Source: a virus
Reading direction: 5' to 3' (one strand)
DNA length: 26,877 nt
Virus record (IMG/VR): IMGVR_UViG_3300030118_001149
Location: 1,723 to 28,599 of that record
Part shown: piece by piece, positions 329 to 6,133 of the stretch
Layout: every line of letters begins with the position of its first letter
How positions within the stretch are numbered: the stretch's first letter is position 1
Notes under the pieces: generated by a model
What the model was told of the DNA's origin: nothing
What the model saw: the letters and a program-made list of their open reading frames with translations, nothing else
Database searches by the model: none
Program-made: the position numbers and the translations under genes

Positions 329-586
329 ATGGTAACAGGCACTAATGCCTTTAAAAATGCATCTCTAATCATGTTAAATAAAATTTCTTCTATTCTTTCC
401 ATTTTATCATTTTTAATTTCCTTAACAACTATTGGGGCTGGCTATACTGCTTACAAATGGGTAACAAGTCCAAATTTTGAAAAGATGATGATGGAAAAAG
501 TTATGGGCAAAGTATCAGGACTTATGCCAAAAGCTTTAGATAATGCTTTACCTAGCAGTACTGGTATTTCTATACCTAAGTTTTAG
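329..586 (+). CDS. Small membrane-anchored hypothetical protein (85 aa)
   Basis: An 85-residue protein with one clear hydrophobic stretch at about residues 16-45 (ISSILSILSFLISLTTIGAG), followed by a soluble tail rich in Met and Lys. I chose the ATG at 329 because AAGG lies six bases upstream; an internal ATG at 371 would give a 71-aa form starting right at the membrane segment. Its stop TAG (584-586) overlaps the GTG start of the next gene by one base, so the two are translationally coupled and probably function together. No family is recognised. A membrane-anchored virion or lysis accessory is possible but is a guess. Confidence 0.6.
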   Translation: MVTGTNAFKNASLIMLNKISSILSILSFLISLTTIGAGYTAYKWVTSPNFEKMMMEKVMGKVSGLMPKALDNALPSSTGISIPKF

Positions 587-1266
587 TGCCTGATATAAAA
601 TTACCAAAGATTACGATACCAACTGTAGATATCCCTTCTGTACCTTATTTCACTCAAAACGTATTAACTGGAATTAAGCCAGCTTGTGATCTTATAGATA
701 GAGATTTAGAGATAACACAAAATCCAACTATTGTATTTCATAACCGAAAGCAATATGCAACATGCCCAGAGGTTTTTGTGCAAGAAAACACAGAGACAGG
801 AACACCAAGAAAAACAGCAACAAAACCTGTAAAAAAAAATTATCAACCTATTATTTATGATCCAGAAGATACGATTGAAGCTGAATCAAGTTCTGAATAT
901 GAAGGCAAATTAAAGCTTGGTAATTTTAATATTTCTGCCATAAATAAAAAAGAAAAATCCGAGGTAGAATTACCGCCCTGTCCAGACTTATCAAGAGTGT
1001 TGCCAGTTGGAAGTTTTACATCAGATTTAAGGACAGAACGTATAAAAGAATATAAAAGAGCAGATAATGGATATGATTGCGTACCAATCCTTGAAGAAGT
1101 CACTTTCATTAAATCGGTATTACCAACGCCTGCTGCTGCTCTTAATGTTGTTGCTGTGTCTTTCATTGCTGCCAGTACTCCACTTCTTTTACCTATCGTG
1201 AAATCTGCAAGTAAAACAGCTTTTAAGAAAATTTTTGCTAAATTTAATAAGAGCAAGAAGGATTAA
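586..1266 (+). CDS. Hypothetical protein with repeated IPxxxIP-type N-terminus and C-terminal hydrophobic segment (226 aa)
   Basis: Starts at GTG 586, which overlaps the upstream stop. The N-terminus is a proline-spaced amphipathic run (KLPKITIPTVDIPSVPYF), the middle is polar with scattered Cys residues, and residues about 183-207 form a hydrophobic Ala/Val/Leu stretch followed by a very basic tail (KSASKTAFKKIFAKFNKSKKD). This layout suggests a protein docking on a membrane with its basic end cytoplasmic. From memory, proteins with similar N-termini occur in T4-like marine cyanophages next to structural genes, but that recollection is unchecked. The gene is followed by an intrinsic terminator at 1337-1371, so the 329-1266 pair is the end of a transcription unit. 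No enzymatic motif is visible. Confidence 0.65.
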   Translation: MPDIKLPKITIPTVDIPSVPYFTQNVLTGIKPACDLIDRDLEITQNPTIVFHNRKQYATCPEVFVQENTETGTPRKTATKPVKKNYQPIIYDPEDTIEAESSSEYEGKLKLGNFNISAINKKEKSEVELPPCPDLSRVLPVGSFTSDLRTERIKEYKRADNGYDCVPILEEVTFIKSVLPTPAAALNVVAVSFIAASTPLLLPIVKSASKTAFKKIFAKFNKSKKD

Positions 1267-1336: not shown

Positions 1337-1371
1337 AACCACCTTTTTCTGGGTTATTAGGTGGTTTTTTT
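1337..1371 (+). terminator. Intrinsic terminator ending the 329-1266 unit
   Basis: A perfect 8-bp stem, AACCACCT (1337-1344) with AGGTGGTT (1359-1366), encloses a 14-base loop and runs directly into seven T (1365-1371). It lies 70 bases after the stop codon at 1266 and just before the promoter of the ncRNA gene. Confidence 0.85.
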
Positions 1372-1376
1372 ATGAA

Positions 1377-1404
1377 TTGACTTGTCTAGCAATGATGCTA
1401 AAAT
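1377..1404 (+). promoter_or_regulatory. Promoter of the three-hairpin ncRNA
   Basis: TTGACT (1377-1382), 16 bases, TAAAAT (1399-1404). The expected start of transcription, about seven bases after the -10, falls at 1409-1411, which is exactly where the first perfect stem of the structured region begins. It sits right behind the terminator of the upstream unit, so it would make an independent transcript. Confidence 0.6.
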
Positions 1405-1425
1405 ATATGAGCATCGCAATCTGAA

Positions 1426-1475
1426 AGCCCCCACTGATTGAAATAAAGGTGGACGTGTAGCCCAGAACCGATGCT
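1426..1475 (+). repeat. Repeat copy 1 within the ncRNA (hairpin 1)
   Basis: Begins AGCCCCCAC and contains GGTGGACGTGTAGCCCA (1448-1464), then ends CCGATGCT. Copy 2 at 1565-1608 has the same blocks in the same order, with a shorter centre. Confidence 0.8.
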
Positions 1476-1546
1476 CTAATCATCACTTACCTGTAAACCT
1501 CCATGCCGTTGTATGGGTAGCGAGTTCAGGGCTGATGATTACTAAT

Positions 1547-1617
1547 AAGCATTACATTCTTGCCAGCCCCCACCTGAAAGGGTGGACGTGTAGCCCAAGA
1601 CCGATGCTTATTTTTTT
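1547..1617 (+). terminator. Hairpin 3 plus U-run, probable 3' end of the ncRNA
   Basis: The outer stem 1547-1552/1604-1609 is followed after one base by seven T (1611-1617). It overlaps the stop codon of the convergent minus-strand gene (1608-1610), so it could also act as a barrier between the two convergent transcripts. Confidence 0.55.
1565..1608 (+). repeat. Repeat copy 2 within the ncRNA (hairpin 3)
   Basis: AGCCCCCAC followed by GGTGGACGTGTAGCCCA (1581-1597) and ACCGATGCT. It differs from copy 1 in a central loop shortened to GAAA, while the flanking paired segments are kept, as expected for duplicated RNA domains. Confidence 0.8.
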
Positions 1618-2246
1618 GTCTTTATTTCGTGTGTATGAGGTAATATCTGGTCTGGCTTGACCGTTAGTACAATATTTTTACAAGAAACTGCATCATCACC
1701 AACAAACTTTGCGCCACTGAGCAGCATTTCTTTGCATACTCTGAGCCTATTAAGATTAACCTCTAATTTTTTAGCTTGTAAAAGAAACTGTTGATATTTT
1801 CTATATGTTTCAGCCGCTAACAAGCACTCATCATTAAAGCGTTTCCCTAGTGGTATTTGTAAATTTATAGTCATTCCATAACTTACATTAACATTAGTCT
1901 GGTCTAACCTAGGCTGCTCTGCTACGTACAATATCTTGCCAGCATTTAACAATTCACCTGTCTCACTATCTTTAGCTGTGTCATAAATATTAGTTCTAGT
2001 AACTGTGCTTTTAGGAGTATTATAAAATTCTCCCATAGTTACAAAAGGATTAAATGAAAGAGTTGGTAATTGACACTGTATGCCATTTGAAAATCTATGA
2101 GTAGGGAAAGATCCTGATATCTGTTGGAAACCCTGATTCACTATAGTATTGCTCGAACTTGACTGAGGATTAGAAATTGTGGTGTTAGCTAATACGGGAT
2201 TAAAGCAAAATAAAGCTAGTTGAACAAGGTAACTTGTTCTGTAAAT
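1608..2246 (-). CDS. Secreted hypothetical protein, start codon non-canonical or missing (about 212 aa)
   Basis: The downstream part is clearly coding: a soluble protein with regular composition from NTTISNP to KTKK. Just before it is a good signal peptide (LVQLALFCFNPVLA, cleavage before NTT), but no ATG, GTG or TTG lies in frame next to it. The nearest in-frame ATG is at 2384, deep inside the upstream gene, and would add 46 very basic residues that look like an out-of-frame shadow of that gene. I place the start at ATT 2246-2244, which gives a 20-residue signal peptide (IYRTSYLVQLALFCFNPVLA) and a 31-base overlap with the upstream gene. A ribosomal frameshift from the upstream frame or a sequencing error would also explain it. 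The mature protein is likely exported to the periplasm or beyond; the family is unknown. Confidence 0.6.
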   Translation of the reverse strand: MYRTSYLVQLALFCFNPVLANTTISNPQSSSSNTIVNQGFQQISGSFPTHRFSNGIQCQLPTLSFNPFVTMGEFYNTPKSTVTRTNIYDTAKDSETGELLNAGKILYVAEQPRLDQTNVNVSYGMTINLQIPLGKRFNDECLLAAETYRKYQQFLLQAKKLEVNLNRLRVCKEMLLSGAKFVGDDAVSCKNIVLTVKPDQILPHTHEIKTKK

Positions 2247-2647
2247 GTTTCTATTGTTTGTTGCCGATTTATTATGCTCACAGCGTCTAAGCCAGAATTT
2301 TCTACATGCTCGATTAAGCTGAAATCTGAACCTTGATCGACTATTTCCCATTTTGGTAGTGTTGTTAAATCTGGGCTTATCCATTCAAAAGTAACATTCC
2401 CATTCCCTGTATTCTGGCTAGTTGTATAAATTGCGTCTGGACTGATGTACGACCCTTCAGAAATTTTTATATTATGTCCAGAAACACTATAAATATAGCC
2501 TGTATTATAGTTCTCAGTAATTATTGTTTCATTAATGGTTGAAGTACTTCTTGACGAAGATTGCATCTGATTTGAATTATATCGAGGTGTAGTTCCATAA
2601 GCGTTAGAACTTAGCAGAGATAAAAATATAATTACAAGCCATTTCAC
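2216..2647 (-). CDS. Secreted hypothetical protein (143 aa)
   Basis: Starts at GTG 2647-2645, three bases after the stop of the gene before it (2649). Residues 1-18 (MKWLVIIFLSLLSSNAYG) are a textbook signal peptide with a likely cut after AYG. The mature part is rich in Ser, Thr and Asn with beta-type alternation and a Ser/Thr-rich N-terminal segment. There are no cysteines, so it is not an Rz1-type lipoprotein. It is the second of three consecutive secreted proteins on this strand, which argues that they form one exported assembly. No family is recognised; surface fibre or curli-like parts were considered but nothing specific supports them. Confidence 0.7.
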   Translation of the reverse strand: MKWLVIIFLSLLSSNAYGTTPRYNSNQMQSSSRSTSTINETIITENYNTGYIYSVSGHNIKISEGSYISPDAIYTTSQNTGNGNVTFEWISPDLTTLPKWEIVDQGSDFSLIEHVENSGLDAVSIINRQQTIETFTEQVTLFN

Positions 2648-2648
2648 T

Positions 2649-3167
2649 TTAGTCTATTCCGAGGGTTATGGTTTGTTGTACTGTAGCAGTGGACCCAGCC
2701 CCCATCGACGAGACATCTAATGTTGGGTCAGCACCAGCATCTAATGTTATTGTCACTGAACCTACATCACCACCTGACACCAAGGTATATTCTCCAAGTA
2801 AATTCAAACTGCTAACTCCATTTGTAATACTGGATGTTGTAGTAGATGTATTATCGCCTTGAATGTATGATTCTGTTAAACTAAATGGATTTGCACTATT
2901 TTGAACAGTATAGCTAGTGTCCGCACTTATAACGGGAATACCATTAGCAATACCATTACTACTTAAATTAAGCGATCCTATGCCCCCTGCTGTGCCGTCA
3001 TTTGGAATAATATTTGTACCTGAGACACTTATAGAGGTTGGGATTCTATTAGCCGTTACAGAAGCCCCAACTGTTTGAACTTGAGCAGAAGTTTGAAAAG
3101 TTTGTGTTATATCGCAATATGCTGCGGGCGTAAAAGCCAACAACAATAATGGAAATAGTTTTTTCAT
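2649..3167 (-). CDS. Secreted Ser/Thr/Gly-rich beta protein (172 aa)
   Basis: A signal peptide MKKLFPLLLLAFTPAAYC is followed by DITQTF. The cysteine at residue 18 could be a lipobox-like cysteine (AAYC), so a lipoprotein is possible, although the -1 Tyr is poor for that. The remaining 150 residues are low in charge and rich in Ser, Thr, Gly, Asn and Val, as in exported beta-rich or fibre-forming proteins. The start overlaps the upstream stop as ATGA (3167-3164), so it is coupled to the membrane protein gene 3164-3562. Its function is unknown; the most that can be said is that it is exported and probably extracellular or periplasmic. Confidence 0.7.
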   Translation of the reverse strand: MKKLFPLLLLAFTPAAYCDITQTFQTSAQVQTVGASVTANRIPTSISVSGTNIIPNDGTAGGIGSLNLSSNGIANGIPVISADTSYTVQNSANPFSLTESYIQGDNTSTTTSSITNGVSSLNLLGEYTLVSGGDVGSVTITLDAGADPTLDVSSMGAGSTATVQQTITLGID

Positions 3168-4116: not shown

Positions 4117-4457
4117 TAGAAAGGAATATCAGAGGGCAATTCAGATTGATTTGCTTTTACATTTATAGTTCTCTCTGATGCTGGTTTTGGGTTTAAAGGC
4201 TGTATTCTTCCAGAATTGCCCCACATACCGCCCCAAATAGAAAAGCCATCAATTTCTGTAAATTCTGACTTGTTTTTATAAATACGAATTGTAGTATTTT
4301 CTTGAATAGCATTATCAGCCATAGTTTCTAACCATTTTGCCATTTTTAATGCTTCTTTTGTAGAAATATCAATAATAAGATTTTTTTCTGGTGCATTTTC
4401 TCTAGTACTGTTGTTGTCAACAATTCTAAATTTTGCGTTAAAAGCTGCGTTTGTCAT
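4116..4457 (-). CDS. Small protein with SSB-like C-terminal tail (113 aa), candidate ssDNA-binding or recombination accessory protein
   Basis: I choose the ATG at 4457-4455 (MTNAAFNAKF); the stop of the gene before it ends one base away (TAATATG), a typical coupled arrangement. The last residues are ELPSDIPF. An acidic or Asp-containing tail ending DIPF is the conserved protein-docking tip of bacterial and phage SSBs (E. coli SSB ends DDDIPF). The body is beta-rich with aromatic residues (FSIWGGMWG), and it follows an exonuclease and a Rad52-type annealing protein. I infer a single-strand DNA binding or SSB-mimic protein of the recombination module. No clear OB-fold motif can be read by eye, so the function stays tentative. 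Confidence 0.5.
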   Translation of the reverse strand: MTNAAFNAKFRIVDNNSTRENAPEKNLIIDISTKEALKMAKWLETMADNAIQENTTIRIYKNKSEFTEIDGFSIWGGMWGNSGRIQPLNPKPASERTINVKANQSELPSDIPF

Positions 4458-4458
4458 A

Positions 4459-4683
4459 TTAAAAAGAGTTGATAGGTGTAATGTTGTTTGTTTCTTCCCA
4501 GACCAAAAGATCATTTAGAGGGTATCTTGTTCGGGGTTGCCCTTTTGCAACTTCTGATACTTTTAAAGTGTAGTAAGGTGGCCCCCAATTTTTCCACCGC
4601 CATGCTTTGATGGTTATTGGATTCTTGCCGTATCTTTCAGCAAGTTGTTCTGTTGTTAAATATCTAGTTTCTGTAATGTTCAT
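4459..4683 (-). CDS. Excisionase/MerR-like helix-turn-helix DNA-binding protein (74 aa)
   Basis: Residues 8-35 (YLTTEQLAERYGKNPITIKAWRW) form a winged helix-turn-helix of the kind in phage excisionases and Cox-like regulators (HTH_17/MerR-like), followed by the expected wing with RYPLNDLLVWEE at residues 53-64. Start ATG 4683-4681 overlaps the previous stop as ATGA. Proteins of this size act as DNA-bending architectural factors in excision or as transcription regulators. Since no integrase is visible in the window, a regulatory role within the early operon is as likely as excision. Confidence 0.65.
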   Translation of the reverse strand: MNITETRYLTTEQLAERYGKNPITIKAWRWKNWGPPYYTLKVSEVAKGQPRTRYPLNDLLVWEETNNITPINSF

Positions 4684-5309
4684 AAATTATTGTCAAGTTG
4701 TTCTTTTTTAATATTAATTTGTTTATTTAATTCTGTATATTCATTTTGAGTAAGTTTGCCCTGTGTATATCTAACTTCAACATTTTGACCATGCTCCATA
4801 AGGGTTTCTATCGTTTCCGCTTTCTGTATAGCATTTGAAGCTAGTACAAAGATTGTTTCTGCTGGTGCGGCTGATCTATCTTTCTGGGCTGCTTTAGCTC
4901 CTTTTTTGCCGTCATATAAAGACAATCCAAACTGATAACCAAACTGCATTAAGGCACGTTTTCTAGCGTCTGATTCAGCCTCTTTAATTGCTGATTCATG
5001 ATTATCGCCTATGCCACTCTTTTGGCGGCCATGCCCTGCTCCTGTACCTTCTCTGATTATATCTCCTACTGTCACTCTTACCTTTGCTATATAAGTGACA
5101 GCAGTTGGTTCACATACAACACAAGTAGTTTCTAATGTTTCTGAAGACCAACCATCAAAGCCAAAAATGCGGTTGGCTTCATCTATAACATGCCAGCTTT
5201 CAACATAGGCAAGCTGAAAAGTACCGCTTCTATTGCCGTCTCTAGTTTCAACATTTTTAGGGTTAATAGGTTGCTTTAATAAATCAACCTGTTCTTTTGT
5301 AAATGCCAT
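4680..5309 (-). CDS. Rad52/Rad22-family single-strand annealing protein (209 aa)
   Basis: The Rad52-family core is easy to see: YVESWHVIDEANRIFGFDGWS at residues 35-55 and HESAIKEAESDARKRALMQF with GYQFGLSLYD at residues 104-133, matching the family pattern KEAxTDAxKRALxxFGxxxGxxLYD. These proteins form rings that anneal complementary single strands and, with a 5'-3' exonuclease, drive phage recombination. The preceding gene on this strand is that exonuclease, only two bases away. I start at ATG 5309-5307 (MAFTKEQ), just after the exonuclease stop; an ATG four codons upstream overlaps it. The C-terminal third is helical and variable, as usual in the family. Confidence 0.88.
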   Translation of the reverse strand: MAFTKEQVDLLKQPINPKNVETRDGNRSGTFQLAYVESWHVIDEANRIFGFDGWSSETLETTCVVCEPTAVTYIAKVRVTVGDIIREGTGAGHGRQKSGIGDNHESAIKEAESDARKRALMQFGYQFGLSLYDGKKGAKAAQKDRSAAPAETIFVLASNAIQKAETIETLMEHGQNVEVRYTQGKLTQNEYTELNKQINIKKEQLDNNL

Positions 5310-5311
5310 AA

Positions 5312-6133
5312 TTAAATCCATTTTGGTGGGGTGAGGGTTTTGATTCCATCTGGCTCTTGATCGCTATGACCAGCCCAGATACCAGATTCTTGGGCTTGTT
5401 TGATTTGCTGTAATGTTTGCTCCTGTAGCTGAAAGCCCTTTTCAATAAAACTTCCAGATAATTCATAGACCGCAACTGTGTAAGGAAATACTTTTTCTAC
5501 AGCAATAAAAACAAATTTCTTACAGCCAGTTCCTTGCATATAGTGAGCCGCTTGCAAATGGTAAAAAAATGAACAGATAGTTCTTGTAAACTTATCTGGT
5601 GACGCACCGCCTTCACCTGTAGTTTTAAGATCTATCACCATATCATCAACAACATAATCACAACGGCATTTGCATTGCAGACCTGTTGCCTTATGTGTCC
5701 ACCAGTAAGATTGCTCAGATGCACCCTTAATATCATTAATTAGATATTTAGAAACAAAAGCATCTTTTTCTAATGACTTTCTAATTGATGCAACAGTGTC
5801 AAATTCTGATGAGGTATAAGTTTCAATCCCTCTTGTCTGAAAAGCAAAAGCAAGTTCTTTACCTTTTTTTGTCCTTTTATCGTCAAGTAGTTGATAGCAA
5901 TTAGCAAAATCTTTTGGCTCAAGTATTGCTTTATGAAACATAGATCCAAATTTCATTGCTGGTGTTGCAACTCTTGGAGGGTTATCTGTTGCATATTTGT
6001 ATGTATGAAAAGCCTGTAAGCCATTACTTACGGCATATTTTAAGTCAGATGCAGCAATAGCCTTATCTGCCCTATATACGCTTTCTAGGACGTTATGCCC
6101 TTCAATGCGTGTTGTAGTTTTTAATGATTCCAT
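5312..6133 (-). CDS. PDDEXK-family exonuclease, RecE/YqaJ-like (273 aa)
   Basis: This is a PDDEXK nuclease of the kind that resects DNA ends for phage recombination. Visible motifs are GSMFHKAIL (His67, the N-terminal helix of RecE-like nucleases), Glu140, CDYVVDDMVIDLKTT (Asp159, Asp168, Lys170; the D-x-K catalytic core) and YHLQAAHY (Gln194 and Tyr198, the QxxxY motif). The size fits the RecE C-terminal nuclease domain or phage DUF3799-type exonucleases. It would act 5' to 3' on double-stranded ends, leaving a 3' strand for the adjacent Rad52-like protein. No strong Shine-Dalgarno precedes the ATG at 6133. A hairpin with a T-run lies just upstream (6135-6166), so expression may depend on read-through. 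Confidence 0.88.
   Translation of the reverse strand: MESLKTTTRIEGHNVLESVYRADKAIAASDLKYAVSNGLQAFHTYKYATDNPPRVATPAMKFGSMFHKAILEPKDFANCYQLLDDKRTKKGKELAFAFQTRGIETYTSSEFDTVASIRKSLEKDAFVSKYLINDIKGASEQSYWWTHKATGLQCKCRCDYVVDDMVIDLKTTGEGGASPDKFTRTICSFFYHLQAAHYMQGTGCKKFVFIAVEKVFPYTVAVYELSGSFIEKGFQLQEQTLQQIKQAQESGIWAGHSDQEPDGIKTLTPPKWI

Follow-up and report, generated by a model that had tools for sequence, protein, structure and literature searches.

The question raised by this locus is what kind of element occupies the space between two convergent cyanophage genes, where a segment devoid of reading frames folds into three hairpins, and why the same place in related phages holds other hairpins or nothing at all. 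The window, that is, the whole stretch of DNA that was analysed, comprises 26,877 nucleotides (positions 1,723 to 28,599 of the IMG/VR record IMGVR_UViG_3300030118_001149). A preliminary description, made from the letters of the sequence, had proposed a stand-alone structured RNA gene, and comparison with relatives now supports this proposal through folding, covariation and the association with a promoter-like sequence. In what follows, the relatives are designated by locus numbers (L003, L123, etc.) and the hairpin modules by type letters.

The putative RNA unit in the window

The elements of the locus are collected in Table 1. The unit was said to lie between convergent genes and to lack a reading frame, and indeed no ORF of at least 50 aa is present in 1372-1607. 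By direct reading of the sequence, TTGACT occupies positions 1377-1382 and is separated by a 16-nt spacer from TAAAAT at 1399-1404. Taken by itself this match is not significant (one site, against an expectation of 3.0 when the 1-kb region is shuffled), and the promoter of the window is credible only because its geometry is conserved in relatives. The terminator-like hairpin upstream of it is predicted to insulate the RNA unit from the upstream gene.

Table 1. Elements of the hairpin locus and of its flanks in the window.
Element	Position	Strand	Basis
Upstream convergent gene, phrog_570-like, cassette-site marker	586..1266	+	ORF and annotation
Intrinsic-terminator-like hairpin CCACC...GGTGG, then T7	1339..1371	+	Sequence read; kept in L123, L124 and L141
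Segment missing in the closest relatives, L123 and L124 (empty site)	1372..1623	.	Both ends in T-runs
Promoter-like TTGACT-N16-TAAAAT	1377..1404	+	Sequence; 16-nt geometry before most arrays, 0/29 array-less sites
Hairpin module 1 (H1, type A)	1409..1476	+	R1 79.7 bits; covariation; 66/68 identical to L003
Hairpin module 2 (H2, type B)	1477..1541	+	R1 27.5 bits, E 1.8e-4, outside training set
Hairpin module 3 (H3, type C), doubling as putative terminator stem	1544..1612	+	R1 82.5 bits; folding
Downstream convergent gene, phrog_848-like, cassette-site marker	1608..2384	-	ORF and annotation
T7 tract past the last module (putative intrinsic terminator tail)	1611..1617	+	Sequence; T enrichment after last modules

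H1 is closed by a stem of 8 bp (GAGCATCG/CGATGCTC) and H2 by one of 9 bp (TAATCATCA/TGATGATTA), as previously read, but the closing stem of H3, to which 6 bp had been assigned, actually has 9 bp: AATAAGCAT (1544-1552) pairs with ATGCTTATT (1604-1612), the last two U being taken from the U-run. The 3' arm of H3 is also overlapped by the stop codon (1608-1610) of the minus-strand phrog_848-like gene. The folding z of the whole unit is -2.9, with none of 200 shuffles equally good, and the single hairpins reach -3.7 (H1), -2.8 (H2) and -3.5 (H3) against their shuffles. The sequence repeat that had been noticed between H1 and H3 was confirmed; it extends over 28 nt with 93% identity (E about 1e-6 in a comparison within the window). 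The reading of 1377-1617 as an insulated non-coding unit of the plus strand with three back-to-back hairpins is thus confirmed, as far as a sequence can confirm it.

The two flanking genes are part of a set of four linked families, phrog_650, 564, 848 and 570, the first two of which are found at 2216-2647 and 2649-3167 of the window (minus strand). The phrog_848 protein has homologues in 403 phage records, almost all of them from cyanophages. Envelope or virion roles are suggested by signal-peptide-like starts. The terminase of the window is 73% identical to those of MED4-117 and MED4-184/P-HS2, and 67-68% identical to those of two Synechococcus siphophages. These identities make a picocyanobacterial host likely.

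Covariation and anatomy of the hairpins

Homologues of H1 and H3 were gathered from IMG/VR contigs and aligned by sequence alone (training set of 13 sequences). In this A/C alignment, compensatory changes are found at 6 of the 17 pairs, and pairing is kept in 98.2% of the cells. The covariance model built from it (R1) finds further members, among them H2 (Table 1) and the relatives of H2 (32.4 bits, E about 5e-6), which lay outside the training set. When type B was included, the enlarged alignment (21 distinct sequences) had compensatory changes in 11/17 pairs and 40 cells, with 98.9% of the cells paired, although these counts lean toward the model because this alignment was fitted to it. None of 500 shuffles reached this covariation, and slid controls gave 0-3 pairs. 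Judged by compensatory changes, the hairpin array therefore appears to be a conserved structured non-coding RNA, and H1, H2 and H3 can be assigned by R1 to one structural family of which H2, formerly regarded as a different hairpin, is a remote member. Both alignments also bear out the view that H1 and H3 are conserved domains whose loops vary while pairing is kept; covariation among homologues, whose lack would have spoken against an RNA gene, was found in both.

The hairpins of this family share a closing stem, P1, of 8 bp and two further stems, P2 (4 bp) and P3 (5 bp). P2 is separated from P3 by an asymmetric internal loop, which among the training sequences has an invariant AGCC on its 5' side and an invariant ACGTG followed by AGCC on its 3' side. 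The E family is separate, since the A/C model gives no match to it, and has covariation of its own (11/20 pairs). Two pairings that had been suggested on the basis of the window receive no support from the comparison. The loop insertion on which a pseudoknot in H1 depended is present only in near-identical A variants, which offer no covariation to judge it by, and the proposed GGGCU/AGCCC pairing of H2 with H1 or H3 is rejected as a conserved feature, given that A/C is found without B in 12 loci and B without A/C in 4.

Departures from Watson-Crick pairing, tallied over the A3 and A2 alignments together at pairs whose commonest form is Watson-Crick, are G-U in 19 cases and A-C in 4 when read on the plus strand. 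Furthermore, all the 138 module matches at the site (72 E, 27 A/C, 14 B and 25 F, counted with four module signatures and with near-duplicate loci included) have the same orientation. The G-U bias and the fixed orientation fit an RNA made from the plus strand better than a DNA hairpin. The motif ACCTC/ACCTCC is found in B, D, E, I and other families (5/19 representatives versus 1.8 expected); its resemblance to an anti-Shine-Dalgarno sequence is a weak hint of a possible RNA target.

The site in related phages

Relatives were located via the downstream gene (80 loci) and via module signatures. Both flanking genes are present in 161 loci, and 23 more have the downstream gene only. Folding of 118 distinct intergenic sequences, with a span limit of 115 nt, yielded 392 hairpins, from which clustering by sequence left about 20 recurring families, arranged in 64 distinct module orders. 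Both numbers are approximate: folding and single-linkage clustering were automatic and may have split or merged some families, and 'e6', 'e18', 'p8' and 't10' probably represent fragments or variants of others. The order is A-B-C in the window, A alone in L003, A-B in L183, I-E-B-A in L190, D-E-B-C-A in L004, E-F-P in L226, I-N-H-B in L356 and R-N-H-B-H in L371. Among the 80 loci selected by the gene, recognised modules occur in 33, the space is too small for a module in 39, and the other 8 are empty or truncated or contain an ORF. The RNA is thus dispensable for the phage group, since 39 of the 80 relatives could not accommodate a module. By this comparison, the place between the two convergent Prochlorococcus-type cyanophage genes is a cassette site that holds from 0 to about 6 modules. 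In T4-like cyanophages, the homologue of the downstream gene also faces a convergent gene, the two abutting, overlapping or lying a few bases apart, with no array. Some search results were discarded: a scan with the 14-mer GTGGACGTGTAGCC was swamped by chance matches, the 17-mer matches L006 and L007 were due to chance, and the gapped-pattern matches L207-L211 were coding or fortuitous.

The same site carries a 187-aa ORF of phrog_2954 in L127 (5617-6180, minus strand), L132, L143 and L167. This family belongs to the moron/auxiliary class and is annotated as ferrochelatase, and the ORF has no Pfam match. It replaces the RNA modules and, in L167, lies beside them. The presence of this ORF points to the site as a general accessory hotspot. 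The intergenic regions of L125, L167, L144 and L371 have longer and more ornate RNA-like segments (100-400 nt) between simple modules.

A -35/-10 pair precedes 63 of 104 arrays (61%), with a spacer of 16 in 58 of these 63. The criterion was at least 9/12 matches within the 60 nt upstream of the first recognised module, and the 61% is probably a lower bound because that module is not always the true first one. The pair is found at none of 29 array-less sites and in 14-18% of shuffled sequence. It is often located within the terminal part of the upstream gene (CTGACA...TAGAAT); in L144, L179, L190 and L240 that gene's stop codon and the -35 box TTGACT overlap and have bases in common (GTTGACTTGCCC). 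At the other end of the arrays, the 10 nt after last modules contain a mean of 5.8 T, versus 2.7 after internal modules. Transcription reading through from 1266, which had been considered as a possible objection to a separate gene, is made unlikely, rather than excluded, by the terminator-like hairpin at 1339-1371 and by a promoter-like sequence that comes and goes with the arrays.

Modules of type E are also found away from these flanking genes, and in L262, L274, L294, L314, L326 and L350 they have a -10-like box on one side and a terminator-like hairpin on the other. In the cultured Prochlorococcus phages MED4-117 and P-HS2, another hairpin occupies the same place (CCCTAAAGCAGCAA...TTGCATTAGGG), following TTGACT-N16-TAGAAT; in the P-HS2 record, MT490303.1, box and hairpin are located around positions 4216-4343, flanked by the same gene pair. 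Nucleotide searches among cultured phages, for which the window unit and the E-F-P array served as queries, gave chance matches or none; the close relatives of the modules that were found are therefore all uncultivated. When bacterial genomes were searched with the E pattern, 12 matches were obtained, of which one is real, a phage contig in the single-cell assembly AG-426-I04. This contig (L385) is cyanophage-like and has a P-E array, and the assembly is labelled alphaproteobacterial. The plate comes from a 'bacteria' sort gate, and such assemblies may represent infected or co-sorted cells (PMC6122165). The array of AG-426-I04 may thus reflect an infected cell, a co-sorted virus or a wider host range.

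Exchange, gain and loss of modules

H1 shares 66 of 68 nt with the lone module of L003, while four flanking proteins of the two phages are only 31-36% identical. H2 likewise has copies 97-100% identical in other phages. In general, module identity does not follow the identity of the flanking proteins (r = 0.15 for A/C, -0.07 for B, 0.07 for F, 0.07 for E and -0.05 for G), with the exception of module I, for which the two are partly correlated (r 0.54). Gain or loss has been recent as well: in L123 and L124, whose downstream proteins are 99% and 96% identical to that of the window, the entire unit of 252 bp is missing, and no target-site duplication was seen at the empty site. In L182 and L185 only a remnant is left (TTTTGTCTT), which resembles the tail of an array.

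At 4680-6133, about 3 kb from the array, the window has genes for a Rad52-type annealase and a PDDEXK exonuclease, which are a plausible engine for exchange at short homologies. Sequence comparison thus gives good support both to the RNA identity of the modules and to their exchange as units.

Comparison with known RNAs and arrays

As the preliminary description anticipated, the unit corresponds to no known phage RNA in Rfam. Scanning of Rfam 15 with cmscan at the gathering threshold gave no matches in the window or in 14 array loci; a low-threshold scan of 1300-1650 had a best E of 0.64, all its matches scoring far below the gathering thresholds, and two further arrays gave nothing up to E 0.5. 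ARAGORN found no tRNA or tmRNA genes in the window or in ten other array loci, and PADLOC recognised no toxin or defence gene among ten proteins of the window, including those of both flanking genes. No description of such arrays was found in the open-access papers that were searched.

In its organisation the array is closest to phage tRNA gene arrays, which likewise consist of tandem, co-oriented structured RNAs, 60-90 nt long and separated by short A/T spacers, whose number and order vary and which are exchanged between phages at preferred sites. However, tRNAs are cloverleaves, whereas the modules are long imperfect hairpins in which ARAGORN sees no tRNA. The ToxI arrays of type III toxin-antitoxin systems share with the present ones tandem structured RNA repeats under one promoter, but the modules described here differ among themselves (H1 and H3 are alike, and H2 is related to them by the covariance model only) and are about twice as long. 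Such a toxin-antitoxin system was rejected as a candidate, there being no toxin match in the ten window proteins and modules of 60-90 nt instead of near-identical repeats of about 36 nt; a CRISPR array was likewise rejected because the repeats are not identical and the ten proteins include no defence-gene match. Protein-sponge RNAs such as CsrB/RsmZ are comparable in that several stem-loops of a single short RNA could serve to titrate a protein. They differ in their repeated GGA apical loops, absent here, where the conserved parts are internal loops and the module families are mutually unlike. The ornate GOLLD and ROOL RNAs of Rfam (PMC12286853 for their cryo-EM) are also structured, non-coding and in some cases phage-associated, in contrast to which the present modules are small, shuffled and without Rfam match. 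Integron attC cassettes offer another site-specific array of exchangeable units with imperfect hairpins, but no RYYYAAC...GTTRRRY ends were seen by eye, selection acts on the putatively transcribed strand, and no integrase was recognised among the proteins examined. Antisense action on the phage's own genes was also discarded, since blastn of the hairpins against the window returned matches of 9-13 nt and one of 18 nt at 89%, about chance level. All in all, the arrays of swappable hairpins look like a previously undescribed RNA system, the novelty lying in the organisation.

Possible functions of the array

We are highly confident that the locus is a conserved RNA gene made of exchangeable modules. 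The fuller explanation that we favour, a trans-acting RNA of several domains in which swapped modules bind host or phage factors, is held as a whole with middling confidence. According to it, a host RNA polymerase of the sigma-70 type would begin transcription near 1410 and terminate it at the U7 tract, which would yield an RNA of about 205 nt with three domains of one structural family, perhaps cut between modules. The modules would be drawn from the approximately 20 families by lateral exchange between very divergent genomes. Each folded module, in the whole RNA or in a processed piece, would present its conserved asymmetric internal loop to a factor of the host or the phage, such as an RNA-binding protein, a nuclease, RNA polymerase, the ribosome or a target RNA, and would act in trans as a decoy or regulator, the module set being tuned to local hosts to the benefit of the phage. 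A role in trans is favoured because the unit has start and stop signals of its own and no downstream gene on its strand, and because it is inessential in the phage group and its module set turns over like accessory host-interaction genes. For the same lack of a downstream gene on the plus strand, a ligand sensor is the least likely of the functions previously put forward, the others being a protein sponge and a possible action on host RNA polymerase or on mRNA.

Some of these properties would also be expected of short selfish mobile elements, either MITE-like or propagated as hairpins through recombination of their ends and A/T spacers, with little or no benefit for the phage. The precise presence or absence of the modules, their exchange between divergent genomes, their occurrence at several sites and the neighbouring annealase and exonuclease agree with such elements, as do AAGCA...TGCTT ends (TGCTT in 9/19 and AAGCA in 7/19 representatives, versus 3.5 and 2.8 expected). 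We nevertheless consider them rather unlikely, since selection on internal RNA pairing with G-U on one strand, a fixed orientation and the co-occurrence of a spaced promoter are not accounted for, the empty site shows no duplication and no mobilising enzyme was recognised. The position of the arrays suggests instead a 3'-end device of the convergent genes, i.e. a strong bidirectional terminator or an exonuclease-resistant end that would halt read-through and stabilise both mRNAs. At this site the arrays always lie between convergent gene ends, T-rich sequence follows the last module and, in the window, the last stem overlaps the stop codon of the downstream gene. However, the upstream gene of the window has its own terminator-like hairpin, the promoter accompanies arrays only, relatives with abutting genes manage without a module, and E modules exist elsewhere; moreover, a simple hairpin would suffice, and conserved internal loops and exchange would be left unexplained. 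This device is accordingly judged quite improbable.

A special case of the favoured trans-acting RNA is an anti-defence or antitoxin-like decoy array, in which each module would mimic the RNA of one host toxin or defence nuclease and several modules would serve to match different hosts. The neutralisation of toxins by tandem RNA arrays is established for type III toxin-antitoxin systems, an analogy to which the fast turnover of differing structured RNAs at one locus, reminiscent of an arms race, can be added. Against these stand the PADLOC result for the ten window proteins and the architecture of the modules, imperfect hairpins of 60-90 nt and not direct repeats of about 36 nt, and we give this specific version the smallest chance of the explanations weighed here.

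Implications for cyanophage biology

Prochlorococcus is the most abundant photosynthetic organism of the open ocean, and we know of no established trans-acting RNA weapon of its tailed phages. We tentatively suggest that marine cyanophages possess a combinatorial RNA cassette locus, in which a fixed genomic position, served by a promoter of its own, would receive interchangeable modules for different host factors. Assembled, lost and traded in this way, the modules might by analogy constitute an RNA counterpart of anti-defence islands or integron cassettes, a parallel that we put forward with the same reserve. If their partner were a known RNA-binding protein, the array would be less novel than its organisation suggests.

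A locus that mixes about 20 structured RNA families provides in any case a large set of new RNA families, two of them with strong covariation, and represents a natural experiment on the pairing of modules with hosts. MED4-117 and P-HS2, in which the corresponding site has a promoter-like box followed by a hairpin, offer a cultured test case. Should the modules prove to act on host factors, the locus would point to new RNA targets in the conflict between phage and host.
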